Part shown: piece after piece, positions 1-64,000 of the stretch
Position numbering within the stretch: position 1 is the stretch's first letter
How the letters are laid out: each line of letters starts with the position of its first letter
Source of the DNA: Lepidurus packardi
Lineage: Eukaryota > Arthropoda > Branchiopoda > Notostraca > Triopsidae
Direction: 5' to 3'
NCBI GenBank assembly: GCA_023053545.1
Contig: JAKZAN010000235.1
Coordinates: 1-64,000 of the forward strand
Length of the DNA stretch: 64,000 bases
Made by a program: the position numbers and the translations under genes
Notes under the pieces: model-generated
The model's database searches: none
What the model saw: the letters and a program-made list of their open reading frames with translations, nothing else
Told to the model about the DNA's origin: nothing

Positions 1-1128
1 CCCTCTTACCCAAGTACTCGAGTCCTTCTGCGCCAGCCATGCACCAGCAATGTCTATGCGTAACAATACCCTCCCAATTAACAATCATGATCCCGAAATC
101 CGAAACCATATCTCTGCTTTGTAGTACAGAATGTGGCTGCGTTGATGCTTTCGAATCTCCTTCTGCTGCATCGGAATTTAACATACTGACATTGCCCAGC
201 TATGCTTTCTTTGTCGATGGCAAATATGTGACTCATATCGAGAGCCAAAGTGACAATGTATAGAGAGAACTCGCACAGCTCCTTAATCGCATCATGAATG
301 ACCGTGTGAAATATGTAGGGTCTGGGACTAATGATGTTGACTCCGCGATAGCAGTGGAAAAGCCGAGAGTGCTTTTCTACGCCCCTACAGACAATACCCA
401 ATCATATCCGATTCACTAGTTGTTGTTCAGGATCCTCGCTGCGAAACACACCAACACAGGTAATATCAACCATTTTACCATCTCTAACCTTCTTTGTACA
501 ACTGTTTGATTCTAAACTGTCTAAAGAGTTTGTAAACATCAACACACAACAAAAGGAGAACCAATAAACCAATATCCCGAGTCTTCGGATCGTCCTACCA
601 GGGTCTACTGGATTTTAATCAATCACATACAAAGGTGATATATCCGATATTCATTAAATGAGCAGCTGGATCGAGCTTACCCTTTCGCCCATACATTTCT
701 TTGATGAGCGTACCATGCGGACAGTATTTCTGAAGAATACGAATTCCCTTATGTTCATAAACCAGGAAAGAACTCCCCGCGAAAGCCATACTATTCATTC
801 AGTCATGCAGAATATCTGTAGTAGGGCCTCGTTCCCGCTCTTGTGTACTTAGGTGACAATTGCGAGTCCTTATTGGCAACAAATCCTAAAGTGGGCTGGC
901 CTTAAAAGATAAGATAAATAGTCAAAACTGTACTTACTGAACGTAGCCCAACGAAAATTGTTTAGGTATGAAGGTTCAAGCCTTGATGAAGCTACAGCTG
1001 AGTTTATGCTGGAGTTCGTAGCAGCATGGTAAAGAGGAGAGTTAAGCGCCATCGATTAGGATGATAAGAAATCCTCATCCACTGCTACGACAAAGTTGCA
1101 CAACTAAGCTTCTACCTAAGAACTCTGA
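1..1128 (+). CDS. PDI-like protein with thioredoxin-fold domains (5' end outside window)
   Basis: This looks like the C-terminal part of a protein disulfide isomerase family protein of the endoplasmic reticulum. Exons are 1-59, 125-459 and 527-1128; the introns (65 and 67 nt) both start GTA and end AG. The visible part holds about three thioredoxin-fold units. The first ends with the typical LPSYAFFVDGKYV strand, the second has NIPSLRIVLPGS, and the third ends with KLFRYEGSSLDEATAEF, like the end of a PDI b' domain. No CxxC active site is visible; where one would sit in the second unit the sequence is YAPTDNTQ. The protein ends in STEEL just before TGA, which resembles a degenerate ER-retention tail. 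The start lies to the left of the window. The assignment rests on fold-type pattern recognition rather than close identity. Confidence 0.55.
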
Positions 1129-1285
1129 TCTATCTTATTTAATGAGGAGAAAGGGATAAGAAAATGACTATATATATATGTGAAAAATAAAAGAAAAGAA
1201 AAAAACAAAATCAACTAATCGATTCTATGTTTGAAATTTAAAGAGAATAATAAATTAATTAAAATAAAGTAATGTATCAAATAGG

Positions 1286-6369: not shown

Positions 6370-6528
6370 TCAAAAGTCTGAGTCTATATTTTTTTATATA
6401 ACAATAATACTAAAAAAAAGGGTCCTTATCATAAAAGCAAATACCTCGTGATACAATAAAACATCCTTTCTTTTCTAAAATTTATCTCTACTAACTATTT
6501 GTATTTCTCCAAAATAGATTCTAATCAC

Positions 6529-8169
6529 ATGAAGAAGAACCAGTTTATCTAGGGCTTCAGAGATCCTACCCCTATCCAGCCCCTCCATCATATTCTACTC
6601 TCAGATCTCAATGCTGATGGAGACAGCAAACTCATCATTTTTGAACAAGCCCTAAACTCTATCATCGCCTACAAAGGTGTCAATCGACTCTTTGAAAAGA
6701 GATTACCACAGCCCAACGTCTCAGCTCTGCTATGCTTCTATGACTAGATAACTACGCGCAACCCAACTCCTTGTATGGCAGTTGCTTCCGAAAATGGATT
6801 GTACATCTTTCGAGGACTCCAATAGTCCTTCAGACTTAAAGTAAGAGATCTTGATCCCGAACCGGAAGAACAGTAACTCTGGCTAAACTATCAATAGCAA
6901 CCTGATCAACTAGCACAGCAACTCATAAAACTATCGGAAAAGATACGGGTCACAGAGTCAGCACGCTACCTAATGGGCGCCACAACCCTCGCTCGCAAAC
7001 AATAACTCATCCACAAAGCTCTGACTGAGGGTATCACCGAAAAAGACTGTATCTGCAGCATCACCATCGTAAGGCCAGACTAAGTCAGCGTAGGCAATAT
7101 TGTTCTCATGACAGAGCTGCGCAGAATGTTTATTTTAGACTCCTTCGGACATAGTATACTCAAGGTCATCAATACGAGAACAACATCCCATCTTTCCTAC
7201 GCGTACGGCGAACTCAATAAGGCTTATTATATTGTGAGTTTGGCCCGCGAAAACCTAATCTCAGTCTATCAGGAAGGCAACGAGAAACATGTCAGTTTGG
7301 GAACTCGTACGATTTCTGCAGCATTCGATTTTCCTCTTCTCTATATAGTCTCAGCTGGTAAGCTGGTCTCCTGCTGGGATATCACGAAACTCCATAAAAA
7401 CTATTCTCTAAAGCTCGCTGCCCAACCCGAGAAGGCAGAAATGATCAAAACTCGGAGCTTCAAAGGCCTTATTTTGGGATTCCAGAACGAGATCAGAATC
7501 TACAATGAGAAACTGTTGGTATACCATTATACTCTGAAGGATACACTCCATAATGTGAAGTTCGGCACTTTCGGCAGGCAAGAAGGCTGTCTTCTGATTT
7601 TCTATCAGAACAGTGGGTTCGAGGTCAAGATTGTGCATCGACAATTCAATGGTAATCTGAAATATGAAAAATAGGGTGCTGACAAGGCCCGAGCAGTGGA
7701 AAACATTCCGATCCCCAAAAAGACCAACTTATTTGTCGCGGAGAGCGTACTGGAGTCTCAGAATTGTAGTTCCATGTATGCAGGTTATCAGAAAGACATG
7801 AGACTCTTAAAATGGATAAGTCTGAAATAGCAGTCAAAAGCCCTGCTTTCCAGTTCTGGGCTGAATGTCAAGATCAACTCGACGGTCCTGGGAATGGGAC
7901 CCAGTTATGTTCTCAGATTGGAGATCCAGAATACTGGACAGTAGAATCTGTTCGGTTTGCGTTTAGTCTTGAACTACGACACCAATATGTATGAGGTCGG
8001 GGTTTTTCCTGGGCGTCTGGAGATGCTGGTGCCAGACTACGCCTACCCAATCTAAATAATGGTAAAGAATATGAGCGAAGGAGGCCTAAGCGGGAGTATC
8101 CGGGTGTGCGTAGTAGCGGATAACGGGGAGTGTAAAGGAATCGGAGTGCAACTCCAAGGATTCGAATGA
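6529..8169 (+). CDS. BBS1: BBSome subunit BBS1
   Basis: BBS1 is the Arl6-binding subunit of the BBSome, the coat that moves membrane proteins into and out of cilia. A single exon of 546 codons (the human protein has 593). The N-terminal half has the seven-bladed propeller pattern: DLNADGDSKLIIFEQ in blade 1, CMAVASENGLYIFRGL, and QELWLNYQEQ, matching the family's EQDLW insertion. Later blades show AGKLVSCWDI and FGRQEGCLLIFYQNSGFEVKI, the conserved FGRyGREd..Li region. The C-terminal GAE domain is clear: LEIQNTGQENLFGLRLVLNY and VPDYAYPIEIMVKN. It starts 159 bases after the importin alpha stop. Conserved Glu are often TAG or TAA. Confidence is high. Confidence 0.93.
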
Positions 8170-12872: not shown

Positions 12873-14675
12873 TCATGGCAGAGTCACCACTTTAGACATT
12901 TTGCAGATACCCTCGTACAGCATCTTCGCTTATTCCAGGTCCCCTGATTCCAGGCATATCGTGTATTTCTACAGCCACACTCGCGATTCCCCCGTCTCCA
13001 GCATACCGTTCGGCTTTACTACTCCTTCATATCCTTCGCTAATAGTCCACTTCTGCAACCTCGAAACCCAGTCCCGAGGCACAGTTATGTACGATTCCTA
13101 TTCGCCCTTGGCCATTATCAATGTGTTATTCGCGAGGATACATTTCTCTGCCACTCTATTTCTGCCCTGGAGGATGTTGGGCCTGACCTTCACATAGAGA
13201 TACTGTGCAGAGCCTATATGGTTAAAATGTCCTAGTTCTAGTTTCTTTGCAGCATTTAACTATGAAAAACTGTACACATTTTCGGGTTTCAGTTCTCCCA
13301 ACCATTGAGAAATCTGTTTACTGGACATTCTCATCCGATTTAGTCTTCGATACTTAGCCAAACTAGTTTGTGGGGATGGGTCGGTGGAAGTACTAGAAGA
13401 AGGTGTGATGTTGGCTTTTTAGGGGTTCAGTAAATATGAAGCACTGCTCAGGAAGTAAACTGCAGGGTTGAACCTTGTCGCGAGGTAGTCCATGGGTATC
13501 TGGTGGTTGCGGGATGCCTGTTATAACTATCCGATACTCAAAAAACCTAGTTTACTCATTTCATCAAAACTGTTGAAAGGGTACTCAGGGGTATCCTTCG
13601 GAGCTTTAGGGCTCTTAGGATCGAAAGGAGTAAACTAGACGTAGATCCGATTACGCAGGAACGGGTTCAGATACTCTACGAATGTGTTTGCATACTTCAG
13701 AGCACTCTAGAAAATAGGGTCTTGGACGAATACCTGTTTGTAGAGGCCCTTGAGTTTGTAGTTAAGAATATCGGCATAGTCGAGCACATCGATGATATCT
13801 TCAGCTAGGATATGGTAGGACTTTCCTTTGATAAGACTGGTTTCCATCTAGCCTAAGAAGTCTTTCAGCTCGTCCATATGTTCAGACTCTTCTGGTCCCC
13901 GAACACAGTCTACTCCCAGTATTAAGTGTTTGACCTTTTCTGTTTTTGAAGCTATTTTTTTACTTTCCACAGGAAGGCAATGTCTCCAATTCTCTGAACA
14001 TATTTTCATGCAGAACAGCAGATTCTCTTTGGTCTATGGCGACTATATCAGCCATATCGCACTGCCGAGGCCTCGACCGGCACTGTAAGGCGTGATCTCT
14101 AAACCATATCTGGCATGGGTCTGCCCATAGTTCAGAGGCATTACATTTTTCTGTAACATTTCCCCGAACTCCGAATGGCTGAAGAGAGGAAACCATTCCG
14201 AAGTATTGAAGTCGTGCATGTCTTAGAGCATCTGATATTTCTGGAGAGAATCCTGGTGCAGATGTTTATCAAGAGGCTGAGATGTATGCCTGGTCCACTA
14301 GCTAATCGACGACATCAGGTTTTTAGTGAATAGTTTACTCAACTCCAAAGCTGCATGAGTGATTAGCACTTGTACGGTTTTGCTGCTGTTTCGATTTTTA
14401 CGGGTCACGAATGGCACTACTGCCAAGTCCTGGTATTCCGATACTAGGATGTAGTCGAGGTTGGATAAATCGAGAGCCAGCAGATGACTCAGGTCGAATC
14501 GTGGCTCTTATGTGAGGAGATAGGATGAGTGATCAGTTTTAGCATGGTGATTGGGTCTCTGGTAGTGCTGGAGAGTCTGGAGGGGAAGTTTTGAGGGTAT
14601 GAGGATCTTCCAAGACTGGAACTGTAGGAGATAGGCCTCGGAATGCTGCGTATGGCTTCCTTGAACTGCAATCAT
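12873..14675 (-). CDS. INTS9: Integrator complex subunit 9 (INTS9) homologue
   Basis: INTS9 is the catalytically inactive metallo-beta-lactamase/beta-CASP partner of the INTS11 endonuclease in the Integrator complex, which cleaves nascent snRNA and other Pol II transcripts. A single exon of 600 codons (human 658). The N-terminus MIAVQGSHTQHSEAYLLQF parallels the human start. ALDLSNLDYILVSEYQDL matches the family's IDLSTVDVILISNYH, with no HxHxDH zinc motif, as expected for an inactive member. Later LNYGQTHARYGLEITPYSAG with GLGSAIWLIESP matches human [27 protein letters not shown]. The C-terminal third is diverged. The stop is TGA. Other CPSF2/CPSF100-like inactive members are an alternative, but the N-terminal match favours INTS9. 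Confidence 0.78.
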
Positions 14676-14851
14676 TCTCTTATTATTATAATTATTACTA
14701 CTCTAATTATTTATGATATATAGATCTAAGATCTAAACTCCAAATATCATAGTCTGAGTAACAAAAAATATATAAAAAATATTAATCATCATCATCTTTA
14801 TACCCCGCAAAAAAAACAATACAATTCCTTTCTCATAGGGTTGTGATGGTA

Positions 14852-17800
14852 TCATTCGATTCTCCTGACTTGTTCCTAAATCGTATTGTAGAGTTTAGCA
14901 CTGTTGTACGAGATCTTCCCTGTGAACCTGCCACTCATCTCATACAGCGTGGTCAGCAGCTGGTTGGTTTCGTCCAGAGTCAGGGATTTGTCGATGAGTC
15001 CCAGGTTGGCTGCTTGTCCGAAGCTTGCCAAAAGAAGGACCTCCAGGAAATGCGAGCGATAGATTTATTCGAACTTGACCCAAACATTGCGGGAGTTCGA
15101 GGCAGTCAGTTTGTCGAAACAAGGGCCTGTCAGCAGGATTAGTCTTAGCAAGTAAATCGAATCATCTAAAAATATCAGATAATATAAAGTTAATAGCATT
15201 ATATGATAAGGAAATTCTACCCATTTCTAAGACTTATTCGTAGGCTCCATCCAGGTCCTATTTCTATACGTTAAACAGCACGAGCCTCCATCGATCTAAC
15301 AGGTTATGGTCCGTTTCTTGATCGGATTCACTTCGATTGCTATTCTTAGATTCCAATTTAGAAGGCTATTGACGTTATTTTTGTGGTGGTGGTATCTTCA
15401 CAAAGGCACTTTTAGGAGGTCTTGATATGAGTCTTTGGAACTTCTGGTCAGCAGGTACTTGAGGATCAGCTTGAGTCTTGGGTTGAGGTTCTGCAACCAC
15501 TTGTTTCTGAGGTTTGATGTCATTTCCACCCCACTTCGTGGTAAATGGATTTTTAGGTACCTCTTTGGGCTAGATTTTGCTAGGAATATAATCCTTCTTA
15601 ACTGTGTTACTAGTATTAGGTCTTATAGGTTAGCCAGACTATTCGTACTCCGACACTACTTCTTCTTAAATCTAATCATCGTTCACTTGGTCTCCTTAGT
15701 TCATACTTGAAAATCTATTTTCAGGACGTTTAGCCTCAGGAGCAGGGTCGGGTCTTTGGGCGACCTGGGATACTTTGGTTGGGGGACTGGCATTGACTCC
15801 TCTCCTTTCTCTGGCCTTCGCTAACTCAATTTTCAGGGATTCATCAAGTTGTTGTTCCATAGCCATCTGCTTACTGTTAGACAGAGAAAGTGAATTAGTG
15901 AGTTCCATGTAGTTCTTTTATTGTAACTGGACTTTCGAGTCATCTATCTTTCTGGATTTCATGATACTGCTATTGGAAGGTTTCGCAAATTTCCCAGCCA
16001 ATTCTTTGATGCGAGAAGATGACCCATTTTTGTTAGTGTCTTGTTAGGCTGGGATGGATTGGTTATCAGGATTATTGGTAACTCCTGCTTTGTTATTACG
16101 CTCAGATGATGACTTTATTGAAGGCTGGCTCTGATCAAGGCTGTTGCTGTTACTTTCTAATCTGATGTTGGACGACTGTCTTTTCTATTCCTTTATTTAT
16201 CGGACTTGCATGTAATCTCCTTCCATTATACGGCTGTTGAGCTCGTTGAGATTCGCAGAATCTTGGAAATCCCTGGATTCTAGGATTCCACCGAGATTTG
16301 AAGAGACATTGGAGATATTCTATCGCATGAGTTCGGCCAGCTATTCTTTGGTCATTAACTATTGTTGTGGCTGTTGGTTGTTGAAGACTGGTCCAGCCGG
16401 CGAGGTCTGTGGTCTTTGCGCAGGCTGATGTTCTTCAGGGCCAATTTAGTCGTGCATCTGTGTGAAGTTCTGATGGAAATTCGAGATGTTTTTCGATTTG
16501 TTATTATGATTATCGTTGCTGCTATGATTTTTATTGTAATTATTATTATCCTTCTTATCCTTATTATTATCCTTATTATCATTATTATTATGACTATGCT
16601 TTTGCTATTGTTAATGATAATGATTTCTTAGGGGGGGCTGTTGCAGTCGGGAGGTAGGCATCTTTTAAGGTACCTTTTATGACTGCTTTTATAGGTTTTT
16701 GGGATTTGGCTGGAAACTCATATTGAATTCAGGACGGGGGCGTGCGGCTGCTGGGTTCGCCTCCTGGGCCCCCTGCTATTCTTATTATACGAATTCGTCT
16801 TCATCTATATGTTAGGAGCGTCTAGCCTATTCTTGCCGCAAGGGCGGACGGCCAGCCACAGGCTGTACAGGGTTGAATGTCTTTGTAGTCTAGTATGGCT
16901 TCTGTACGAGTACTGGTGTCTTAGAAAATCTGTCGGGCGTGCTCCTCCTTGCCTATTTCTCAGTCTGCACATATTTTTTTAGTTCCTTCAAGTGATCTTC
17001 GTATGTCTTGCCCTTCTTCGGGGGAGAGTGATCGAGTTTGCCGACCTGCCCACCTCCGATACCGGTACCTTTTTTGACAAAATTATGGGCTCTGTTCTGA
17101 GGCCCCCACCCTCGTCCTTTGGTCAGCTCGGACAGATCCTACTTCATGAACTTAAGTTCCTACTCCCACTTCTCTCTACTTTTTCTGCGATTGTCTTCCC
17201 GTTACTTTGAATTAGAAGATTCCTTTTTGATTTTCTGGCGCATTTCATTTAGAGACTATGAGGAGTTTTTGGAATTATTTGGGATTAGATTTCATGGGTT
17301 TTTACCATTAGTTTGTAGGGGGATTTTGGTCTATCTTGTCCTCCTTGGTCGGGTAATGGCTCGACTTCGAGACCCAGGATCTTCCGCCAGCCCCGCATCG
17401 CAGACTGAGCTGCTCTTTGCACCTGTATCAGCCTGTTTTTGGAGACTTGTTCAAGAGTAGCCAAGATGTCCTGCGGTCTCAACATTTTTATATAAGCATC
17501 ATTGCCATCGATCATCTTCGCCACTTTTTCCAACATGTTGCATACTGCTACTCTCGACTAAGCTCCATAAATTAATATATGGGTATAGAATCAGATGGCT
17601 TTTATATTTTTACCATATAGGCATTATAGTGCATCCCTGATTTCTGGGAGTTGTTGCTCTGGTCGCCTAGGAAATTGGTTAGTTTGTTGATGAACTGTAA
17701 GAATTTGTTATCGAAGAACGCCAGTCCGCTGATATCCAAACACACCGAAATCGCAGACATTATCTAGTGAAACTCTGGGTTGATCTTCAGGAATACGAAA

Positions 17801-18635: not shown

Positions 18636-19212
18636 GGATGGTTACTATGTTATTTCTGGTTGTAGTCCTTGCTGCTTATTATTATTATTCGGGTTATTTG
18701 TTTCTTTCCTTCTTTTGTTATATTTATTATTTTTAAATAATGATGAGGGATTGGGGGTTCTTTGTTATTTTTTGTTTGTCTATGTTTATTGATTAATTTT
18801 TGGCTGAGCTTTGATTATTTTCGTAACTTATTCAGAGTATTTTAGGGGGGACTTCGGGGATATGGGTATAACGATATACACCTATGAATTAATTTTCAAG
18901 TTAGTCTAATCTCTCTTTTTTAATAATTTTTGATGATGACGAAGAAAAAAAACACAAATAGAGAGTTACTTTCTATTGTTTCTCAATTATAATCTATTAT
19001 AAAATAATAAAAGAAATCATAGAGAGAGAGAGATCTCTTAATAATTGAGAAAACAGTTAAAACAAAAAAATATAATTATACCTTTGTAAGTCAAAAAACA
19101 TTCAGAAGAGTGTTTTATAAAATGTATGCACATAGAATCAAGTATTCACTTATCTTTAAAAGATATAAACATTGATTCTCCCCAAATAACAAAAAACACA
19201 CACGATCACAAC
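18636..19212. other. Divergent AT-rich spacer
   Basis: Spacer between the divergently transcribed TOG-protein gene and PRPF6. It carries a TTATTATTATTATT tract near 18678, a T-rich block, and a GAGAGAGAGAGAG tract near 19021. No convincing gene. Both promoters should be here. Confidence 0.6.
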
Positions 19213-21912
19213 ATGGAAGAGAGATGGGAAGGTTTTAAAAAACCCAACTTCGGAAACCCACCTCCTGGCTACATTGCAGGACTCGGCAGAGGGGCCACGG
19301 GTTTCATTACCAGGAGTGACATCGGGCCTGCGAAAATGGCAGAGAATCCTTTCATCAAAGCAGCTGCTCCCCCCAGCGATGACCCTGCAGAGTATCTAGA
19401 CTCCAAATACGATGAGTGGCTCGGCTACAGTGCCCCGCTCTTCTCCCTCGGCAAACTAGATGATGAGGATAGATAGGCAGAGGAGGCCTACAATTTCGTG
19501 GATAAGCGGATGGACGGTCGTCGTAAATAACAACGTGAACAACTCATCAAAGAGGAACTCAAGAAACTCAATGCCACCAAAAAGGCAATATCTGATCAAT
19601 ACAGCGACCTGAAAAGAGATCTGGCCAAAGTGAGTTACGAGGACTGGCTTAAAATCCCAGAATCCTCAGACTCATCCCTCAAGAGACAGAAGAAGGAGAA
19701 ATATGTACCCGTGCCTGATGCTATGATCGCCAGCATGATCCAGAATTCGAAACCGATGGCTTCGGAAGTAGGGATGGGAGCAGGGGAAAGTATCAATGAT
19801 TTGGGCGAAGCGAGATAAATACTATTGAAGTCTAAACTAGACAGGGCCAGTAATGATGTGGGAAGGCAGACTGTCGTGGACAAAACAGGATACTTAACGA
19901 GTCTGAGCAGCTTCAGGATCAACGATTAGAGTTACTTAGGCGATCTTAAAAAAGCACGTCTGCTTCTAAAGTCAGCGATATCGGCCAATCCTAAAAACCC
20001 TGAGACGTGGATATCAGCGGCCAGGGTCTAGTAACTCGATGGAAAGTTCCAGCAGGCCAGAGACATCATGCAACAAGCAATAGAGCATTGTAGCCATCAC
20101 GAGGATATCTGGATATAGGCTGCTAGGTTGTAGCGACCTGAACTCTTAAAGGGTATTCTTCTGAAAGCATTGAGTAGACTTCCCAAAAGTGACAAATTAT
20201 GGTTGACGGCTGCAAGCAAAGAGACCGACATCGACACAAAAAAGAAAGTATTGAGAAAAGGACTAGAACATATCCCCCAATCAGTGAAGCTTTGGAAGAA
20301 CTTAATTGAGTCGGAAGAGCAGTCTTAGGCAAAGAATCTCCTGTACAAGGCAGTTGAATGTCTCCCTAAAGAAATAGATTTGTGGATTGCTCTGGCCAAG
20401 CTGGAAACCTACGAGAATGCAAAAGCAGTGCTGAACAAAGCCCGTAAGAGCAACCCACTTGACTTGCAGATCTGGATCGCTGCTGCTAAGCTAGAAGAGA
20501 CACAGAGTTCAGAAAAACATCTCATTTTGGATCGGATTTAAATCATTCTGGCCAAAGCACAACAAGTCCTGCATAAGAATGGCAGCACCCTTAAAAGAGA
20601 CGACTGGCTCGAGGAGGCTGTAGTCTGTGAGAAGTCAGAAAACATTATCACTTGTCAGATTATAGTTAAAATCAGTCTTTCGATGGGGATTGAAGCCGCA
20701 GAACTCGAAAATGTCTTGAATAAAGACTGCAACAGCTTGGCTGAGGAAGGTCTCATCTATACTCCCCGGTTTCTATACTACTACGGAATCTAAAAACTGG
20801 GCAGCAAGGCTTTGATCGAAAAAGCACTTGAATTCTAGAGAAACGCGCGTGCTTCCAGTAAAGAGAAAGCTTAGGATTCTTTTTACGACAAAATCCTTGA
20901 ACTTGCTGTTAAAAAGTGCAGCCAATAAGAGGGCTTCTGGATGTTGATGATTGATAAGCTTATCAAAGAGAAATAGTATGAGTAAGCCATTAAACTCCTG
21001 AATAGGGCGGAGTCTATGATGACCAACAAAGAAGCGATTCTCCTCAAAAAGGTCGAAATCTACAGGATATTGGGTGATTAACAACAGGCTTAACAGTTAT
21101 TGGAGTAAGGCATGAAACTATACCCCAAAAGAACGTGGATCTAGGCAGCCAATTACTATATCCAGAAGAAGGATTATAATCGGTCATGGAGTATATGTCA
21201 AGAACTCTACAAAAAAGCAAGGGACGAAGAAGTCTTCATGTTGGCCTTCCAACTTCAGAACAGGATCGGTACTTATGAGACAGCCAGAATCATTCTTGAG
21301 AATGCTATCGAGAAATACGATCAGTCTGTTAAACTGTGGTTGACTTTTGCAGAATTCGAAATCAAGAGAGGGTTCCCTGCTAAAGCAAGGACTTTGCTCG
21401 AAAAAGCAAGAGTGAGAATACCTAAGAACCCCGAACTCCATTAAGCTAATGTTCGGTTAGAGCTAACTTCGAATAACCCTAAAGGTGCTTCATTTATGCT
21501 TTCCAAGGCCTTAGTTGAGTGTCCGAAGAATGGCAAACTCTGGGCTCTGGCCATATAGATGGAGCCCGGAATGAAGAGAGCTAAATAAGCAATGTAAGCA
21601 TGTCCGGAAGATCCTTACGTGACTTTGGCAGTAGCAAAGCTATTCTGGAAGTAAAGAAAACTGGAAAAAGCCAAAAAGTGGTTTGAGAAAGCTTTAGTGC
21701 ACGGTCCAACAAATGGAGACTGCTGGGCATATTTCTACAGGTTCATATTGTAGGCCGAGCCTGCCCATGCCGGTATCGTTCTGGCGAAACTGAAAACAGT
21801 GAGTATGAGCTAGGGTCGAATCTGGGGATAATATTTCCGAGATCAATAGGGGAACGAGTAGAACTTACAAAGAGTATTAGAGCATATCAATGAAGAATTA
21901 GCGAGACTCTGA
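19213..21912 (+). CDS. PRPF6: Pre-mRNA-processing factor 6 (U5 snRNP, Prp6/PRPF6)
   Basis: PRPF6 bridges U5 and U4/U6 in the tri-snRNP of the spliceosome. A single exon of 899 codons (human 941). The N-terminal Prp1 region is almost textbook: [20 protein letters not shown], then [36 protein letters not shown] and IPESSD. The HAT repeats follow ([58 protein letters not shown]) and run to the end ([21 protein letters not shown]). Human counterparts align almost without gaps, and the TAA/TAG codons fall mainly on Glu positions such as WIEAARL. The start ATG 19213 begins with MEERWEGF. Assignment is secure. Confidence 0.97.
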
Positions 21913-22111
21913 AGAAGACTTGTATTTACATATATTATTTTTGTTATTTTGGAATGATCGTGATATGGTGCATTAAAATTCCCAAGTTTATAAAAGAGAG
22001 AGAAGGAGGGGGGTTAAGTTTTGTGGGATTTGTATTCGATATTTTTTAATATCATATATACATTTTGTTGTCCTCAAACTATATCACCAGATCAGTGTGT
22101 CATACATAACA

Positions 22112-22618
22112 ATGAAAACAGCCTAGAACCCGGCTCCCAGTATCTTCGAGACCTATGCTTTGTCTGATACCGAGTTATTCCATCGCCAGCAACGCGAAAA
22201 TGATCCCGAACAGATCGACTAGATCGATGAACTCTAGATTTTTGACATGATCCGCAACATAAATGATCCCGAATACCCTCTGACTCTCGAACAGCTAAAC
22301 GTCGTCAACATCTCTCGCTGCCACATTCACTCGGAAACTGCAACCGTCAGAGTCACCCCAACCATCCCCCATTGTTCAATGGCCCAGCTTATTGGTCTCA
22401 TGGTCAAGACTAAATTGCGTAGGAGTCTGCCGACCAGAATTAAAGTGAATGTTATCATCACGGAGGGGACACATGTGAATGAGAACGACATAAACAAGCA
22501 ACTTCGTGATAAATAGCGGGTTGCTGCTGCACTCGAGAACAACAGTATTGTGAGGGTGATCAGGAAAGGAGTTGTGAATACCGACAGACTACCCGAATTT
22601 TTCAAGGATCTCATATGA
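22112..22618 (+). CDS. CIAO2B: Cytosolic Fe-S assembly targeting factor CIAO2/MIP18
   Basis: This DUF59-family protein delivers iron-sulfur clusters to apo-proteins together with CIAO1 and MMS19. A single exon of 168 codons, the normal length. The conserved core is complete: [20 protein letters not shown], the reactive-cysteine motif [46 protein letters not shown] and then [10 protein letters not shown]. The E of DKERV is a TAG at 22514-22516 directly after a CAA-coded conserved Gln in NKQL, which makes this gene one of the cleanest proofs of the genetic code. It follows PRPF6 at 199 bases on the same strand. Confidence 0.96.
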
Positions 22619-27419: not shown

Positions 27420-28622
27420 TCATTGTATCTTCCAGTTGAAGAGTTACTTTATAGCTAGCAGCCAGACCATGTAGGGAAGTAGTAGAGGAACCAGACACAA
27501 CATTTTAAGAGGGGTTGCCAACATCACACCCCACATATGGGTCATCACTACCTATTAATGGCCGCGCATCAGGTCTGTAATGTTTAGACTACCCAGCCCC
27601 AAAGACTCGTATGACAGCACTTTCCTAACCCTCTTCGAACCTGTACGATCTTTGATACTTAGCTCTACTTCAGAAATAGAATTGTTATTGTGTGCTCGAT
27701 TGATCTCGATGAAGCCATAGTTGGAGTCAACGAATCTATCATCAGATGTACTATAGGTATGAGGGAAGAACTCACGCACAAAGGTATCCGCAGCCATGGT
27801 GTGGTCTGCTGCTGAAAAACTCAGACCACTTGAAGTTATTTCGTTGAGACCCTCTCTTGCGCCGATCTATCCAAAATGCACATCTCCTGACATCATGACT
27901 GCATGGATAGCATACTTCTTTAATAGTCTATACATACGGGTTCTGGATTCAGGAGCCCATTTCTCAGTGATAGGCCTGTCATCGTATATGAACTGTACTC
28001 CTGAACCAATCAGGAATAAGTCCCCTGGCTTGTTTTTCTGAAATTTTCCCTACAGCCAATCCCAGTCAGTCTCGTCTAAAGTATGATTTTTGGTCCTATG
28101 TGAGCGTATGTCTATAAGCAGGAGATGCACGTCATCAGCCACTTGGATATACTGGCTAATGCTGTCAGGAATTTCAGGTTTTATTGCGAACTCCTCAGTG
28201 AATATCTTAAAGATCGAGCTCTTCTGCGGGTTATTAGCCCCTCCATTGTTCATATTAAAGTCGTGGTCGTCCCACACCACCCTGAGCTTTGTGCCAGCGT
28301 TGATAAGACTTTGCATTTCAGGGGAATAGAGGTTCATCCTGATTTTTCTGCGGATCTCGCTTTGATTGAGTTCAGGCTGCCACTTGCTGGGGTATCCGAG
28401 TTTGTCGATATAGGCGAAATCCCCCAATACCACAAAGTAATCAGGTGTGTCTTTTTGGATCGTGGTGAACATGGTGAGTGGGTGTGACTCGAAGAACCTG
28501 TTGCATGAGCCGAAGGCAATCCTGATATTCTTTTTGCTCAACTATTGTGTTTTTTAGATCTCGGCAGAAGCTACTAGCAGAACCAAAAAAGCGATAAAAC
28601 TGGGTATGGCAGCCATTTTCAT
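27420..28622 (-). CDS. Secreted/membrane PhoD-like metallophosphatase
   Basis: A 400-codon single exon encoding an extracytoplasmic metal-dependent phosphoesterase of the PhoD/alkaline-phosphatase-D type. A signal peptide is obvious (MKMAAIPSFIAFLVLLVASA). Motifs in order: IAFGSCNR, YFVVLGDFAYIDK, RVVWDDHDFNMNNGG, HLLLIDIRSHR and MSGDVHFGEIG, which together give the Asp, Asn and His ligands of the metal site. The E of GDVHFGEI is a TAG at 27867-27869. The C-terminus has a hydrophobic segment (LVPLLLPYMVWLLAI), so the enzyme may be membrane-anchored. ATG 28622 is used; 28616 is also possible. It is followed at its 5' side by a gene on the same strand ending 134 bases away. Confidence 0.88.
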
Positions 28623-28756
28623 TAGTTTTGGATTAGCCTCAATATCAATCTATCTAAAACATTATACATATATCGTAAGAAAAACCAATATACACACATG
28701 TGTATGGTGACAGTAATAGAAACTAAAAAGAAATAAAAATTTGTATTATCCTATCA

Positions 28757-43463: not shown

Positions 43464-44525
43464 TCAGATATGCTGGGTATTAAAGATATAGTCCCAGAAA
43501 GGGTTGGTCACACCGAACCCTCGTCCGGAGTCTTTGAAATGGTGTTTTAAGTGCCATTTCTTCATGAAGCACAATGGTCCAAAACTAGTTTCCCAGCCAA
43601 AATGAAAATAGTAATGTAATGCATCGTAGGCAGTCAAAGCCATCAGAAGTCCAAACCCGAATCCGAGTGCAGGGGGGAATCCTAGTATCCGAGTTACGAA
43701 CACATCGAGTAAGATCTCCACGATGACCACTTTCAGCATGCCAAGTGCCACTGTCAGTTCGTTATGAGGAAAAGCATGGTGAATACCATGAGCATCTACG
43801 ATTTTTCTAACAACTGAAGGGTTTAGTTGTTCTGCTTTCATAACAAGTTCTGGATGGAGTACGAATCGATGGAAATAGTACTAGATGAGGGTCCAGACGA
43901 CCACACCCAAGAGCATGCAACCAGTGAAGCACGTAATTGAAGATGCTGTTACAAAAGCCCCCGAATAGATTGCTCTGGCGAGTATAAAGACCAGCATCAG
44001 GGAACATTGGAACATGTTTGTCCAGAAGTCCTTCATTCTGTATTTGTCCTGAACTGGATCTTCATGGAGGATTAAGGGTTTGCCTTTGTTGCTCTTCATC
44101 AACTTCGGGAATTTTAGAAATGTGGAGAGAGACTCCATGTCGAAGCCCTCAACCTGTGGCAGGATGGGTTTTGTGAAGTCCAACGCATTTTTCATTTTTA
44201 TGTGTTTTAAGTAGTCTTTGTTTTCTGATATCTCCTGCTAAATATCATCAGATGATGTGGTAGAAGACTGATCCGACTGATGATTATTAGCTTTCCTTCT
44301 GCCTATGGCGTGATCAAGCACAAACAGCCTCGCATTCAGACTATGTTCAGTATTCTCGAACGGTTTTCGCAAGTCCTGATGCCGATAATTATCAAGCATC
44401 CCATTACCTCCGGGATGATTGAAGTTGGTTAGGTCTAGTACGAGATCTCCAAAGTATACAACTTTGCGAGAGTCTAAGGCTTCGATCTATCGTGAAGTGA
44501 GTTATGTGAGGGAGCCTGAGGCCAT
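43464..44525 (-). CDS. FA2H: Fatty acid 2-hydroxylase with cytochrome b5 domain
   Basis: This ER enzyme hydroxylates the alpha carbon of fatty acids destined for sphingolipids. A 353-codon single exon (human 372). Residues 25-85 form a cytochrome b5 domain with both heme-ligand motifs, NFNHPGG and TEHSLNA. The C-terminal hydroxylase domain has TM segments (SLMLVFILARAIYSGAFV, GCMLLGVVVWTLIEYYF) and the di-iron histidine boxes: HRFVLH, HGIHHAFPH, HYYFHF and HLKHHFKD. The E of LIEYYFHR, invariant in the family, is a TAG at 43881-43883. Domain order is as in Scs7/FA2H. The assignment is secure. Confidence 0.94.
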
Positions 44526-47695: not shown

Positions 47696-50047
47696 TCATT
47701 CGATGGGTAGGTCGCTCTGGTACAACTTTATATTCTTCTTCTCGGCTTCTTCATCGCTCTCCTCCTCTTACTCCTCTTCCTCGATGTTGTAGATGTCCAC
47801 ACTCGGTGCATTCGTTAGCAGAGCCTTCAATTATTTGCCCTCTTCTAGTTCATCGAATACTAGCTAGAAACGATTGTTCTATAGAGGGTTCTCAGGGAAC
47901 GCGTGTTTGTTTGAAACACGGTATCCCGCGTTGTTGCTGCCGTTGAGCACTGATTAGCCTGGTGGCGGGAATATGCAGTCCAGAGTCAACCTATAATGTT
48001 TCAGACATGGATAATTAAGAAGGGATGATTTGAAGGTTTTCATACCTGAATGCATTTTCAACCATCGAGGGTATAACGCGACCCAGGAGTGGAGAACTGA
48101 GCTCCAGACACGGATTCGTGTTGGCTTCGATCAACCACACTTTGAAGTTCTAGTCGATCATGAAGTCTAGCCCGAAGATTTCGAATGAAAACTACTTCTT
48201 CTCGGGGTCTATTTTGGTGTAGACAGCCTTAATAGAATCCGTAGCCAACTTCTTCATATCAGGATAAGCTGTTGACCAGAACTTGTACTTGGGCTCCTGT
48301 GTGTCCAGATACCTCTGGAACTATGCAAACGATACTTTGTTCCCAGGTTCGTAACGCCCGTACTCTTCACACTTCTTCTGCACGGCGTCATTCGTAAGAT
48401 GAATCATTTTGTTCGCCAGGTTTTTGAAATTGAACTCCTTACAAGCTGTCCTGATGTATCCCTCCTGGAACCAGTACCCTTTGCATACCCCGTTCAAGCT
48501 CGTCACGCAGATGTATGTCCTGATATCGAATTTGCGCTTGTGGTACAGGAATGGCATAATGTACTCCTGTAGAATGTGGGTGCGAGGTCGGCCCATGGAG
48601 TCTTGGGTATCTTTGCTGATGAGCTATTTAATTTCCTCTAGAGTCTCAGAGACATTGATCCCGGTTCCTCTGTTAGTGTTTTATCCGGGTTTGACAAGCC
48701 ATACGTTGCGCTTTTTGGTCCTTTTATTCTGCTGGAACTGAGGTTTCTTAGCATCAGCATCTATCTGATCCTTCTTTTGTTGATAGTACTACAGAAACTT
48801 AGCAAACTCCTTCCCTTCGAGATCTTCGACATGGAAGGTCACAGGAATGTAGTCAAAGGGGTTGATTTTTCTCATTTCGTAGTACGTCCGCATGTTGTAG
48901 AAGAGGGCTTTCTTGTTGCTGAGATGGAAGTTACTCTATAAGTGATTATGGCTCCTGATATTTTGGGGATTTTATAGGGTGCGGGATCTCGCACGCTTGA
49001 TCGGCTTTAGTCCTCCTTCTTCACTCAAAGCCCCCAGAGCTTTAAGAGCCTTAAGATCCTTCTGACTGAATACTCTTCGCAGATTCTGATAGTTGAGCCA
49101 AGACTTAGGATTCGCCAGTACAGCAGAATCTCTCTTGTTGTTAATAGCCACTGCAGGAGCAGATTTCTCCATCATCTCAACTGATTCTTTAATTGTACTG
49201 TTTCCCTGCAGGATACTTTTATTGGAACTGCCCAATTCCTTTGGTTTCGAAGATCCTCTCTTTTGAGTTTTCACTAATAAAAACATAATAGAAATTACAT
49301 AAAATCATGCTAGGTTGAGAAATGTGATTTTTTTTGTGAGTTACCTGCTCTGATAAGTACGTCTCGGTTGTTAACGCTCTGGCTTCGGCTGAAGGTTCGA
49401 TTTTTTTATTATACTTCATGGAAGCTACTCGTGTTCTGGAGCTGAGGAGGTTCTGGTGCATCTCGGTCCAGTTCGAATCCTGATGTCTCATCGTCCCAGA
49501 ATGCTTCTGCAGTTGATTTAACACTTTTGTAAGTCGATAGGATCTCGTTCTGACGGAGCTGCGTCCACACGAAGTTTATGCTAGAATCTAAAGGATTTTC
49601 AGTAACCGTCCACCACGGCCTATTTTTAAGTAGGTTCTTTATTAATAGACTATTGTTGCCTTTGCCTACATATGCTGTGTAGGTCCTCGACGTTTCTAGA
49701 GAGTGCGGTAAGTAGACCAGTCCGTTCGATATGTTGATATAATTAAGGAAGTCGCGATATTGCCGATATCGCATTTGGAGACCTGAGTTGATGTTGGGAG
49801 TGGATAGGATGAGTGCTTTCTTCCGATCCTGGGGATTGATGATATGGAGTTTTGGTTTTTGGAAAATGTGGATAGAATTGGCGTCATGCTGATCTTTTTC
49901 TGTGGGTTTGCGAATGACCGAACTCGACGTAGGGGTGTTATCGGTAGCGTCATCCTGTGTCTTCTTGAGCGGGGGGAACTTGGTGAAGGAGATTTGCTTC
50001 AAACTATCTAGTTATGCGTATCGAGGAATGATCCTTTGAGGGATCAT
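47696..50047 (-). CDS. Tubulin tyrosine ligase-like (TTLL) enzyme
   Basis: TTLL proteins are ATP-grasp ligases that add glutamate, glycine or tyrosine to tubulin. Exons 49345-50047, 48046-49273 and 47696-47990 with introns of 71 and 55 nt sum exactly to 742 codons. Motifs in order: RPWWTVTENPLDSSINFVWT, VWLVKPGENTNRGTGI, YIMPFLYHKRKFDIRTYICV, NKMIHLTNDAVQKK, and EIFGLDFMIDENFKVWLIEA with NTNPCLE. In two of these the key Glu are TAA (48681-48683) and TAG (48150-48152). The tail is acidic. The open frame continues upstream of ATG 50047 to about 50146 with good coding character but no ATG, while an ATG near 50153 is in another frame, so the true 5' end is uncertain. Substrate type cannot be told. 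Confidence 0.9.
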
Positions 50048-55812: not shown

Positions 55813-55856
55813 AAAAAGGACTCATCATAACCAAATACATAACATATATGTATATA

Positions 55857-57179
55857 TCAATGTTAGTCCCTAAAGGTTGGGAACACGACCGGCGTCAACC
55901 TTGAGACTATACCTTTCTCGTCCACAACCGCGTAATAGTCATCGAATTCACCAGCCTCGAATCTTTGGATCGCGTTCTGGTCGGTATCAGTATTAGAAAT
56001 CTTGATGCACAATAGTGCATCATTTGCACGACAGTCAGGGTACTGGGATTCAAGGATAGAGAAAGCATCGGTTGGAAGCTTTCCTTTGTAGGCTCTGGTC
56101 AGCCAGAGCTTGTTTTAAACCAGGAAATTGGCAAGCTTGATTTATCTTTCGGAATGGGAACCTTCTTTGTTGAAAATGTAGATGCTTTCTGTTTCGGCTG
56201 TGAAAGGGAGATCTCCAAGGATGCACGGCACAGAGGCATTAGCATGTTCAAGACCGGCCTCCTTGAGTGCCCTGTCCCATTCAGGCTCGTAAGACATCTA
56301 TCTTTTGAGTTCAAAATGCTTCTCTCCAGCTTTCTTCGTGAAGTCATGAATCTCAGACCAGTGGTTATTCCAAATATCGATTTTGGATTTCTTGAACTGA
56401 TCTAGGAGTTGGGGGTATCCTAGATTCTGGGGATATGTTGTGAACACGATATTGTTGGAACTCTCGATGACCGGCTGGCTGTTGCAGTACAATGAGAACT
56501 CGCAATCGAAGCAGTCTCTGATTCGGAACTGTTTGGTAATGCCGATCATTTTGATGTTCTTGCAGTCTCTTAGGAAAACGGTGCTCTCACAGGGTGCACA
56601 GAATATGAAGCAGTCCGAACACTTATCCACGTACACATTGGCACTGATATCGAAAATGAAAAATACGCAGCCCTCGCAGCTATCGATATTGAACTGTTGC
56701 TGTTTGATGCTGTCGATGTTTTTGACTTTGAATGCGTCCTTCTCCTTCAAGAACCTATAGTTGTTGGGGTCCACGTTTTTCTTCTGGAAGGAGTAGACCT
56801 TCTTTTATTTGGGAGGCTCGGAAACAGAGTTGGGAGTAACAGTAGTCGAAGGCACTGTGCTGTGTTACTTCTGTTGTTGTATTTGTGGCTCATTGACCGA
56901 AGGTTCTGGATTGAAGTTGGTAAGACTGGTCTGGTTGGGCAGGACTGTTTATAGTTTGGTCTGGGAGTTGTAGTGTTGTTCAGAATGTATGATGGATTAT
57001 TTCTAGGGTTCTTGGGAGAGGGGAGGTTGTTCTGATGGGGTTTTGTGGGGTTGGGGCTGTGTCTGTTTTTTGTCGGATGCGGGGGTGTCGATACTTTCTT
57101 CGATCTCGAAGGTCTCTTCGTGGAGATCGTAGGATGGGTGTTTCTATTTGCGTTTAGGACAGGGACAAATACTACCCAT
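55857..57179 (-). CDS. RP2: RP2 (XRP2) family, TBCC-domain ciliary GAP
   Basis: RP2 is the GTPase-activating protein for Arl3 that releases lipidated cargo in cilia. A 440-codon single exon. It starts MGSICPCPKRK, a Gly2 plus Cys pattern for N-myristoyl and palmitoyl anchoring, like human MGCFFSKRRK. A disordered linker of about 120 residues follows. The TBCC/C-CAP beta helix then shows VFFIFDISANVYVDKCSDCF, STVFLRDCKNIKM, the catalytic-arginine region QFRIRDCFDCEFSLYCNSQP, and the signature PVIESSNNIVF with SKIDIWNNHWSEIHDFTKK, all matching RP2. The C-terminal 130 residues replace the NDK-like domain of human RP2 with an unrecognised domain (EPEWDRALKEAGLEHANAS). Confidence 0.9.
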
Positions 57180-57516
57180 TATACTGTGCGTGTGTGTGGG
57201 TTGGGATTGGTTCAAATATTTTATACTTTAGTTATAGAAATCCAAAGTATGCTCTTCTTGAATGAATGAATGAATATTCAAATATATAATGATGACCGAT
57301 GCTGAGATACTCGTTTGGGGTTACTATTATTTTTAAAAATATATATAAAAGGTCAAGAATCACTAATTTTCATCCGATTTCCTATTCTTTTTTCATTTTT
57401 TTCTACTGTCTTTGGAATCATCTTCACTTCTTTTATATATCTCATTCACCTTATTCATATTCCTTATATCTGATTGTTTTCCTCTCTATCTTTTTTTATC
57501 TTTAGACGATAATCCC
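57180..57516. other. Non-coding AT-rich spacer
   Basis: Spacer between two minus-strand genes with a GAATGAATGAATGAAT tract near 57260. No gene seen. Confidence 0.55.
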
Positions 57517-59425: not shown

Positions 59426-60388
59426 ATGATATAACGCAGTGATCTAGATACGCGATTCGTTGGCACACCTTTCGACAGACAGGTCCGGATCGCAGACTGG
59501 AACCAGTAGACTCTTCAGAACCAAACTGTCCTCTGCCTCGGTGCTGGCGGTCTCGGGTCAGTTGTTATCCTCAGTCTCCTCAGACTCGGTGTCGGCAAAA
59601 TCATCATCGTAGACTACGACAAAGTGGATAATCACAACCTCAACCGCCAGCTGATGTACTCGATCAAGGACGTAGGCAAGCCTAAGGTCGAGTCTTGTAT
59701 TAAGAATGCTGAGTTCCATAAAGTAGACCCTAAGACCGAAATCATCGGGTTCGATGGTTGCGCACTGACTAACTGGGCCAAAATTGTGGAGTTCGCCCAG
59801 AGCAGCAACTTCATTTTCAATATGATAGACTTCGGAGATTGGTTTGATGCTGCAGTACAGTCCTTGGGCCTGGCCCTCAAGATCCCAGTTGTACAGGGCG
59901 GTACTTTCTCTCTCTCTTTAACAGTGGACTATTTCTCACCCACTGGACAACCTTGTTACTACTGCCTCACGGACGATATCCGGAAAGATACCAATACTTA
60001 TACCAAAATCAGTCCTGAGGTCATCCTGCAGCAGAAATAAATCAGGAGCCTCCTCCCGAAGAACAACAACCCTATCGGTCGATCGTCGGTAGCAGTTTGC
60101 ACGATGTGTGGTGAGTTCATGATATCCCAGTACCTCAACTTCCTGTTTTTCCATGACCAGAAAGCTGTTCCGACTCAAAGACTGATCTTCTACACGAACT
60201 CTTTCGAAGTGGTCAATTTCCCATTGGAGCCTGAACCTGGATGTCCTGCTTGTTCTAAGAAGAGTGAAGTGGCGACGACTGAATAAACCGAGATCGTTAA
60301 AGTGAATACTGAAGACAAACCCAGCGATAGCAATGATGTAGTGGTAACCTAGGATCACAAGACCAATAACGACGCATTGGTAGGTTGA
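59426..60388 (+). CDS. E1-like ubiquitin-fold-activating/adenylyltransferase (ThiF/MoeB/UBA family)
   Basis: A 320-codon single exon of the E1-like superfamily, which adenylates the C-terminus of ubiquitin-like or sulfur-carrier proteins. It begins PFDRQVRIADWNQETL, followed by the nucleotide-binding loop VLCLGAGGLGSVV and the metal/ATP motif IIVDYDKVDNHNLNRQLMYS with the conserved D...N..RQ. Two zinc-binding CxxC pairs frame the C-terminal half: CYYC near residue 180 and CPAC near 273. VAVCTMCGEFM is at the position of the catalytic-cysteine loop. The E of WNQETL is TAG at 59507-59509. MOCS3-like and UBA5-like identities both remain possible; no rhodanese domain is present. Confidence 0.82.
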
Positions 60389-60634: not shown

Positions 60635-63106
60635 TCAATTCAAAACCGGATAACAAGTCTTCACGGGTTCTCCTTTGTAGATGCATTTGAACAGTCCCGT
60701 ATTGCCTCGACTGTTTTTCTTCCGATTGTCCACCATCACTTTAACAGTATCCTAGAGTACCATCTTCACGAGTTTCCTGGTGATCGCTGTTGAGTAATCC
60801 ATAGAAGGACTTGAGTTGATTTCGATCAGCCAAGGGTTCAGTTTTTAGTCGATCATGAAATCGTAGCCGAAGAGTTCCATTGTATTTTTTCTGCCTGTCA
60901 CTTGATCCTAGGTGCTCTTGCAACTGTAGATGATGATATCTTTGATCTTCTTCTGGATCTGGGCCCAGAGGGGGTTCCCATCAGAGTCATTCCCGAGGTA
61001 GTTTGAGAGTTCAGCCATGCTCCACATATTGCCTTCGATCTCGGACTTGTGGAACTCTTTGGAGTGTTTCTGGATGGCGTTGTTCGTCAGATGCATGAAC
61101 TTGTTGTTCACATTATCCATGTTGTACTCCTCTGCGCAGAAACGCAGGTAGCATTCCTCATAGAACCATATTTTGGGCGGGTTGTAATCTTCGACCAGGA
61201 CCCATTGGCGGATATCGAATTTCCTGTTCAGGATTGTCAGGGGGTTTTCGATATACTTCTGGACTACGTACTGGACATCTTTGCCTGTGGTGTGGTCTAG
61301 AATTTCATTCAGTTTGACGATGCACTTTATGCCTCTGCCCCGAGACAAGTAGTTGGGTTTGACGATCCATATGTTTCGGCACCCAGTCATGTGGTATTGT
61401 GGGTCTTTCTTTTAGAGTCTCTTCAAAACCTATTTGACTCTTTCGAGAAGTGGTGTTTCCTTGTTGTCCGTCCTTTTCGCGAGTTTATCGAGCAGGGTGT
61501 CTATAGCCTTGGAGTCCACCTTGGTAGTCAGAATTTGCCATTCCTCAGGAGTGCAGATACAATATGTTTTATTTGCCTAAGAATGTTATAGAGATTGGAT
61601 GGGATATATAGATTGATTTTGTGTTACGAGATTGTCCACGATGGTAGGCAGATCTAGGAGTTTCCTCTCAATAATCTGCAGGCTCAGGAGTACTTTGTAC
61701 TCAGTTTTTTCGTAGGAGGTTGGGTTCAATGCATAGGTTTTCAGCAGACTCTCGCAGAATGTAAACTTATAGTTCTCCAAGAAGTTCTCGAAGTCCCCCA
61801 GATCTGCAAGATCAAAGCATCTTGGGAAGTACCGGTCGATATCGGCTCCTTCGTTGTAGATGATAGTACGAAGGGACTTGCATATCCCGTACTTGCTTGT
61901 TAAGCATTGGTTGTTATTGAAATGGTTCACTAGCTGTTTAGGTTACAGGGCTTCGAACTCGATGTCGTTAATTTTGGTTGTCCACTTCAGATCGAATAGT
62001 CTTGAGTACTTGTCAGGATTCTCGACCCAGCCGCGATCTAGTAGGGCATTACGAAGATCTCGGTAGCCTCCTTTGACGATGAAGACTTTACCATTCACGC
62101 CCATGTTCTTCTTCCAGCCCTCTAGATCTCGGAACCTCTCTTTCTTATCAGTCCTATCATCATCGTCCTCCTCGGATGAGGATTAATCCTTCTTCTTTTT
62201 GCTTACTACCTCTTTGAGTCTGTTGGGTTTGTAGTTTAATGCCTTCAGCTGCTCGCTCGTCGATGGGTTATGCCTCTATCTGTATTTATAACGACCTTTT
62301 AGCTTTGCGTTTTTGAGGAGTTTCTCATACCATTCATATTGGGTAGACAAAGTCTTTTTTTGTGGTATCGTGCTGAGTACCTTGATATTGGTGGGATCGT
62401 TGATCTGTCTCATGAACTCCTCCTTTTCCCCGCATGCCGCGATGACACTGACAGGAGAATACCTAAAATAAGCCTCTATTTTCTGCCAGTCTATCTCGGC
62501 ATATTGCGCCTATTGCTGGTTTTTGGAATTGGTATCTCTCATCAAACGGGGTATCTCTCGGGCGATACCTTTCTGCATATCCTTCCTCAGAGTTGTCCTT
62601 TTCGAGGATTACTTAGTGTTTGCAGGTATTCTTTTCACACTGGCAATGCTTTCGTGATGCTGGTAGTTGTTCTGATTAGTGGGGGTATTGTCTGCAACCA
62701 TCTCGTCCTACTCTGGTCTCTCGAGCATGGTTAGTCTGCGCTAGATGTTATTATACTATCTCTTTCCCACCGAAAAGTTCTGATGCCGAAGATGGCTGGT
62801 GTTGAGGAGCGTGCCTCCTGCGGCCTACCTGCCACAGTTATAGATTTTATTGAATCCCCTGGGATTTAAAGATTTGAGTCGTTGGGTGCTGCGGGGCTCA
62901 TTGGAGTTGCTGGAACCAGATTTAGGGCGTTCAGGTGGCTGGGAATTAGGGGCGGGGTTCTGGGGACCGGTGGCAATATTGTTTCTGAGGTTGCTGATCT
63001 GATTTTCTTACTATTCTAGTTTCGATTTGTAGTTTTCTTTATCAGGGAACCCGAATTTCTATTGGATGGTGATTTTGACGCCTTCGAGACCTTTGAAAGA
63101 CTTCAT
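60635..63106 (-). CDS. TTLL3: TTLL3/8-type tubulin glycylase
   Basis: An 823-codon single exon for a ligase that starts glycine side chains on axonemal tubulin. After a disordered N-terminal 150 residues it shows the TTLL3 hallmarks: [20 protein letters not shown] with [45 protein letters not shown] and RYFPRCFDL. The ATP-grasp part follows: [75 protein letters not shown] and [18 protein letters not shown], the last typical of glycylases. An acidic linker ([12 protein letters not shown]) lies near residue 265. The Glu of FMIDE is TAA (60845-60847). The gene is intron-free. Its TTLL3-type motifs separate it clearly from the TTLL at 47.7-50 kb. Confidence 0.93.
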
Positions 63107-64000
63107 GTTGTTGTTGTGAATACGTGGGGACTGACTGGTTTTTCAAGGGCAGAGAGTGAGTAACGAGTTATTGCCGTGTATTTAGGAATATTGATGTGTC
63201 AAAAAATAGTAAAGTCAATATTTTTGTTATTTTTGAAATAACTCATATCTCTCTTGACCTTTTTCCCCCAACTTGTGATTAGATATATTTATAGTGTTTT
63301 TTGAAACTCAAAAAAACATTAGGGGTTTTTTCAAATGGTTTTGTTTAAAAATGTATGTATGTAGATGTTCGGAATCGTTCACTAGATTTATCGAGATTCT
63401 ACTCATCTAGTACTCCAAGGGTCTCTAACTGAACGCACCGGAATCAGAGGCACAGCCAGCCCCCTTTATTCTCCTGTTCAATCTATCCCCTGCCCCAATT
63501 TCGATGCATACCCAGATTCTAACTTCTCATCATGCCAAACTGGATTCGTTTGAATAAATCCAGCCCATATGTGTTTTTTTGTCGATAATATCAATTAGGG
63601 GAAATCTTTCTTTTTTTAAATAGTCAAAAATCGAGCACTGCTTTAACTAGATACTCTCAAGAATTGAGCAGTTCTAACTAATGATTGATAATGAATGTAT
63701 GAGTGAAAAATCCAAAAGACGATTGAATACGTAAAAAGGTACTCAATCTGTCTTAGTTTTCATGGATTTCAATTTTCTCAATTTTGTTTTTCGCTGTAGC
63801 ATTGATCAGATAGCTATGGCTTGAGCTACCCAACCTAATATACAGCGGTAAAGCATAGATATACTCCAGCAATCGACTATTTAGCTGCCTACCAATGTTT
63901 TTTACTGTTCAATTCCTTGGGAAATAATCATCATTAATAATGTAGAAGAAGAAGAAGGGTTTCTGGAGTCTGTGCCATGTATGTGTGTCTGCGTGTGTTC
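63107..64000. other. Spacer at the right edge
   Basis: Mostly AT-rich. It holds one possible short gene (listed separately); 63560-64000 shows no coding frame. A GAAGAAGAAGAAG tract lies near 63944. Confidence 0.5.
63365..63553 (+). CDS. Possible 62-residue protein or first exon
   Basis: ATG to TGA frame in a locally GC-rich patch, with coding-like composition (IYRDSTHLVLQGSLTERTGI, ASPLYSPVQSIPCPNFDAYP). It includes one TAG read as Glu. It may be the first exon of a gene continuing to the right. Divergent to the TTLL3-like gene. Confidence 0.35.

Follow-up and report, generated by a model that had tools for sequence, protein, structure and literature searches.

What do UAA and UAG encode in a 64,000-nucleotide stretch of DNA whose genes run through both codons? 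The stretch (positions 1 to 64,000 of contig JAKZAN010000235.1, assembly GCA_023053545.1; hereafter the window) had been assigned the peritrich nuclear code in a sequence-only reading, with UAA and UAG (together UAR) read as glutamate (Glu) and UGA as the only stop. Our analysis makes it very probable that the window belongs to a macronuclear contig and that its source, an oligohymenophorean ciliate and most likely a peritrich, translates with NCBI table 30. In such a genome, UAA and UAG would be ordinary Glu codons alongside GAA and GAG (GAR), and UGA would be the sole stop.

Amino acid at UAA and UAG

When TGA was taken as the only stop, the longest frame in the window had 990 codons, and 17 frames had at least 400 codons. 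These frames are far longer than first-order Markov simulations give: in 30 simulations the longest frame averaged 376 codons and never exceeded 543, with a mean of 0.5 frames (maximum 3) reaching 400 codons. A Pfam scan of 20 of the 140 listed frames found matches in 11, one of them only below its cut-off. Ten Pfam-matched genes contained 60 TAA and 72 TAG codons in 5,358 codons (2.5%) together with 318 GAA/GAG codons; UAR makes up 29% of the Glu codons in these genes if counted as Glu. The six gene frames printed for the window all end at TGA, which holds by construction since the frames were cut with TGA as stop.

The residue at UAR was judged from profiles of homologous proteins. To avoid favouring any reading, UAR was entered as X in the homologue searches, and the log-odds (in nats) of each codon were summed over confidently aligned profile columns, keeping alignment positions of posterior class 9 or asterisk (in one count also class 8). 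Within the window, profiles were built for PRPF6 (all 35 listed homologues, in a single continuous alignment of 864 columns) and for TTLL (120 of 969 homologues). TAA (n = 19) scored 10.4 nats as Glu, 0.8 as lysine (Lys), and -6.3 as glutamine (Gln), with Glu best in 4,153 of 5,000 bootstraps. TAG (n = 23) scored 23.9 nats as Glu, -3.4 as aspartate (Asp), and -7.3 as Gln, with Glu best in 4,996 of 5,000 bootstraps. In the sense-codon control, 58 of 61 codons were assigned correctly (CGA, GTA, and TGC were wrong), the sample being small but usable. The window gives Glu by itself, independently of other contigs.

A second sample consisted of dynein heavy chains from 12 other small contigs of the assembly, scored against 120 of 2,184 homologues. 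It comprised 19 of 30 extracted loci plus L074-L076; two further small contigs with matches, C297 and C94, were left out. TAA (n = 87) scored 43.1 nats as Glu, -21.7 as Gln, -27.2 as Asp, and -70.2 as Lys, and TAG (n = 54) scored 24.4 as Glu, -19.6 as Asp, -32.1 as Gln, and -47.5 as Lys, with Glu best in 1,999 and 1,987 of 2,000 bootstraps, respectively. All 61 sense codons were recovered as their standard residue. TGA occurred at none of the 15,552 aligned codons, and UAR at 0.9%. In an identical run, dyneins of the six large contigs (C1-C6) showed 0 TAA, 1 TAG, and 2 TGA among 3,059 codons, with 60 of 61 sense codons correct. At small-contig dynein columns where one residue reached at least 0.8, TAA stood 13 times at Glu and twice at Asp, never at Gln or Lys, and TAG stood ten times at Glu, twice at Asp, once at Lys, and never at Gln. 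Glu was the commonest residue at 39 of the 87 TAA sites and 20 of the 54 TAG sites (Lys at 6 and 4).

In the dynein sample, UAR acts like a normal Glu codon, because UAR and GAR are about equally frequent at conserved Glu columns (odds ratios 0.79 to 0.96, z at least -1.04). An avoidance of UAR at conserved Glu sites was rejected on the same odds ratios. The UAR share of Glu codons per dynein contig ranged from 0.01 (C322) to 0.28 (C220), with C322, C130, C328, and C275 differing from C220, C193, and C325. Reassigned codons are described as less used in highly expressed genes of the ciliate Oligohymenophorea sp. PL0344 (PMC10553269).

The central claim of the sequence-only reading is therefore upheld, as TAA and TAG are each best read as Glu in both the window and the dynein profiles, and TGA is absent from the aligned dynein codons. 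In the dynein, PRPF6, and TTLL profiles, UAR sites are led by Glu and do not align mainly to Gln. At all seven sites for which coordinates had been given, the codon on the correct strand is TAG (five) or TAA (two), and the Glu codon of the PRPF6 motif WIEAARL was located as a TAG (Table 1). The description of these residues as family-invariant proved right for KPGEN in TTLL but not for DFMIDE, where the Glu probability is only 0.33 in both TTLL genes.

Source of the window

The window lies on contig C224 of the assembly (G000; 108.6 Mb, 344 contigs), which also holds the six large contigs of 10.7-14.0 Mb each. Genes on C1-C6 match exon by exon, and a pelota exon on C5 scored 122.8 bits against the pelota chain of 5lzw and 79.9 bits against that of 3mca, which we take to be mammalian and fission yeast proteins, respectively. 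On these two grounds we take C1-C6 to come from an animal; their code looks standard. A Col_cuticle_N search for a nematode identity of this animal gave no match, but the control genomes were equally silent, so this result is weak. The assembly apparently combines an animal genome (six chromosomes, standard code) and the macronuclear genome of a ciliate. Synonymous codon use of the window correlated at 0.89 with the small-contig dyneins and at 0.70 with the C1-C6 dyneins. Its third-position guanine-plus-cytosine (GC) content was 0.54, equal to that of the small-contig dyneins, and its overall GC content was 41%. On C4, two dynein matches with identical scores were found at 7116297 and 7137267, 21 kb apart.

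A CCCCAA pattern search gave, in contig order among the 100 places listed, an imperfect C5 match followed by arrays on C73 and C74, located at the start of both contigs and at ~142.45-142.66 kb on C73. The control was uninformative, since the reversed pattern matches the identical repeat. The C73 and C74 telomeres probably belong to the recoded ciliate. The start of the window has no telomere, and the CCCCAA pair occurred in none of the 84 extracted loci, the last 2.2 kb of C301 included. An internal CCCCAA array at ~95068-95199 of the 139.8-kb contig C74 points to an alternative end or a join between contigs.

In a dynein tree of 33 rows, built by a quick maximum-likelihood method, the gene of C130 grouped with Paramecium and Pseudocohnilembus (Shimodaira-Hasegawa-like approximate likelihood ratio test, SH-aLRT, 100), so that the organism, judged by this protein tree, groups with the oligohymenophorean ciliates. 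Peritrich identity is likely, because this placement coincides with a code that is reported for peritrichs and because table 30 carries their name (labelled 'peritrich nuclei: TAA=E, TAG=E'). UAR as Glu is described for Campanella and Carchesium (PMC10553269), whose codes are predicted in PMC4967479, for Vorticella and Opisthonecta (PMC4695839), and for peritrichs generally (PMC11687900), and a single origin within Peritrichia is reported (PMC10553269). In the literature consulted here, peritrichs alone are described with Glu for UAA and UAG alike. Peritrich genomes exist (PMC12411067); the text of that source does not mention genetic code, tRNA, or telomere, and contains 'codon' only within one reference. 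Of the proposed peritrich nuclear code, the code fits table 30, whereas the taxon is supported indirectly, through the oligohymenophorean grouping. It is unlikely, in our estimate, that a non-peritrich oligohymenophorean lineage reassigned UAR to Glu independently; if it did, Glu capture would be recurrent, as opposed to the single event published.

Competing codes and decoding

Several observations weigh against the reading of the window as peritrich DNA in which UAR encodes Glu, and they bear on different parts of it. The code and a class-level placement are the whole basis of the peritrich identity. One window TAG, at 60910, aligns to a tyrosine (Tyr)/phenylalanine column. At dynein columns where one residue reached at least 0.6, the 26 TAA fell 18 times on Glu, three times on Asp, and once each on five other residues, and the 18 TAG fell ten times on Glu, three times on Asp, and once each on five others including Gln. 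In PRPF6 alone, TAA (14 sites) scored 7.0 nats as Lys and 5.8 as Glu. The Pfam, tRNA, and eRF1 results that belong here are given below.

The Lys lead in PRPF6 matters because Lys for UAA, beside Glu for UAG, is the code of PL0344, a member of the same ciliate class (described in PMC10553269). We consider such a split code very improbable for the window. For TAA, Glu exceeded Lys by 9.6 nats when PRPF6 and TTLL were taken together, although 795 of 5,000 bootstraps ranked Lys first. Across the 87 dynein sites Lys scored far below Glu, and dynein columns dominated by Lys (at least 0.8) held no TAA, as against 13 in those dominated by Glu. Lys for UAA was a hint of PRPF6 only and was overturned by the dynein sample.

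Smaller still is the chance of table 6, the usual ciliate code that reads both codons as Gln, even though this code is described as the commonest among ciliates, for example in Paramecium and Tetrahymena (PMC10553269, PMC11687900), and Gln was the commonest residue at 8 of the 87 TAA and 6 of the 54 TAG dynein sites. Four codes were contrasted by Pfam scores over ten window genes (13 domain scores, with other overlapping TPR/HAT and ATP-grasp families left out). The totals for UAA/UAG were 1259.1 bits for Glu/Glu, 1255.4 for Lys/Glu, 1254.3 for Gln/Gln, and 1204.2 for Tyr/Tyr, and Gln was ahead in six of the 13 scores. With TPR_19 counted for TPR_14, the totals became 1213.7 for Glu/Glu, 1212.5 for Lys/Glu, and 1214.5 for Gln/Gln, turning a Glu lead of 4.8 bits into a Gln lead of 0.8 bits. 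Pfam scores alone cannot separate Glu from Gln and were dropped as a judge between them, since counting one or the other of two overlapping TPR families changes the order. The dyneins do separate them, Gln lying below Glu by 64.8 nats for TAA and 56.5 nats for TAG; at columns with Gln at 0.8 or more, UAR was never found, versus 84 cases of CAA/CAG in the same dynein genes. Tyr for UAR (Mesodinium-type) was ruled out, being 54.9 bits worse over the 13 Pfam scores. That nothing is recoded, UAR being true stops in pseudogenes or assembly artefacts, has next to no probability: although the assembly mixes organisms, UAR is frequent in dynein and window genes while TGA is missing from the aligned dynein codons, the frequency of UAR at conserved Glu columns is close to that of GAR, and the standard-code genes of the large chromosomes lack this pattern.

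Individual sites were also compared with solved structures. In CIAO2, TAG residues 116 and 209 were at Glu in all three alignments shown, and the third aligned TAG site, residue 111, was at proline in galla-2. In yeast Scs7, represented by two chains of a single protein, the residue aligned with the FA2H-like TAG is Glu. Among the sites for which Glu had been proposed from the sequence, CIAO2 DKERV and FA2H were thus corroborated, but the E1-like evidence was mixed and the PhoD-like site found no independent confirmation. The E1-like site was Glu in E. coli MoeB and Lys in the yeast E1 chains (three of the four alignments shown), and the PhoD-like gene scored slightly higher in Pfam with Tyr (33.1 bits) or Gln (32.1 bits) than with Glu (31.8 bits), its site at 27867 having no solved relative to align. 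The BBS1 alignment was mixed, with one UAR site clearly at Glu and most others in variable columns. In the pelota gene of C219, one TAG was matched by Glu in the 5lzw chain but by arginine (Arg) in that of 3mca; the remaining UARs were at Asp, glycine, serine, proline, or a gap.

For the decoding of UAR as Glu we draw on other ciliates. UAA and, through wobble, UAG would be read by a tRNA that carries a UUA anticodon and accepts Glu; a partner tRNA with a CUA anticodon would probably share in the decoding; and eRF1 would ignore UAR yet still recognise UGA. Strict patterns found no tRNA with a UUA or CUA anticodon on the small contigs, but the control pattern for tRNA-Glu(UUC) was also silent there (13 matches, all on C1-C5), so this absence is uninformative. 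All matches of the strict suppressor patterns on the small contigs were accounted for by three tRNAs presumed to be of the ciliate (one Lys(UUU), two Arg(UCU)), a further Arg(UCU) tRNA located on C42, and two ARAGORN-negative places. C42 and C52 carry close tRNA clusters and may be bacterial. A loose suppressor-tRNA pattern was too permissive (354 and 281 matches versus 126 and 135 in the control), and its 100 places among the matches listed were all on C1-C4. No ciliate eRF1 was found on the small contigs, where PF03463 and PF03464 gave only pelota (C219) and PF03465 was not searched.

Genes of the window and comparison with known codes

Table 1. Genes of the window and UAR codons within them (bit scores are Pfam).
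Feature	Position	Strand	Details
BBS1 gene	6448..8169	+	5 TAA + 7 TAG, TGA end; BBS1 alignment up to residue 559/573
Metallo-beta-lactamase-fold gene	12873..14855	-	5 TAA + 12 TAG; Lactamase_B_6 28.4 bits, cut-off 27
PRPF6/Prp6 splicing factor gene	18976..21912	+	978 codons, 19 TAA + 15 TAG, TGA end; PRP1_N 141.7 bits
PRPF6 TAG	20029..20031	+	column Glu probability 0.99
PRPF6 TAG at WI[E]AARL	20116..20118	+	profile Glu 0.74
CIAO2/MIP18 gene	21890..22618	+	1 TAA + 5 TAG, TGA end; galla-2, FAM96A matches down to 1.6e-38
CIAO2 TAG at DK[E]RV	22514..22516	+	
PhoD-like gene	27420..28760	-	5 TAA + 5 TAG; 31.8 bits, cut-off 27
FA2H/Scs7-like gene	43464..44525	-	TAG at LI[E]YYFHR (43881-43883)
TTLL family gene	47892..49286	-	3 TAA + 7 TAG; TTL 166.8 bits
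TTLL TAA at KPG[E]N	48681..48683	-	Glu probability 0.99
TBCC-domain gene	55857..57356	-	11 TAA + 4 TAG; 116.8 bits
E1/ThiF-like gene	59426..60388	+	3 TAA + 2 TAG, TGA end
TTLL3-like gene	60635..63106	-	7 TAA + 12 TAG, TGA end; TTL 250 bits

The metallo-beta-lactamase-fold gene is presumably CPSF/INTS-like. A 553-codon frame at 50611-52272 on the reverse strand contains one UAR only and has neither a Pfam match nor a solved relative.

The reading of UAR as Glu is itself already known from peritrichs. Between the window and table 30, as used by Campanella umbellaria and Carchesium polypinum, no difference in code was found: UAA and UAG are Glu, UGA is the stop, GAA and GAG are kept, and the organisms are oligohymenophorean. 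The Campanella and Carchesium codes were derived, as their sources describe it, from transcriptomes, whereas here the Glu code was confirmed codon by codon from the genomic DNA of the contigs. A full set of tRNA and eRF1 genes from such a genome would let the change from a Gln code to a Glu code be tested.

Table 6, used by Paramecium and Tetrahymena, resembles the code of the window in that UAR is sense and UGA the only stop, and differs in that UAR is Gln there and Glu here. Applied to these contigs, pipelines set to the standard or the Gln code would give wrong translations; the assembly carries the ciliate beside an animal. Oligohymenophorea sp. PL0344 belongs to the same class and shares UAG as Glu and UGA as the only stop, and its genome has a reported GC content of 30.6% (PMC10553269) versus 41% in the window. 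UAA, however, is Lys in PL0344 and Glu here; resolving UAA and UAG separately, as was done in this study, is relevant since this related lineage splits them.

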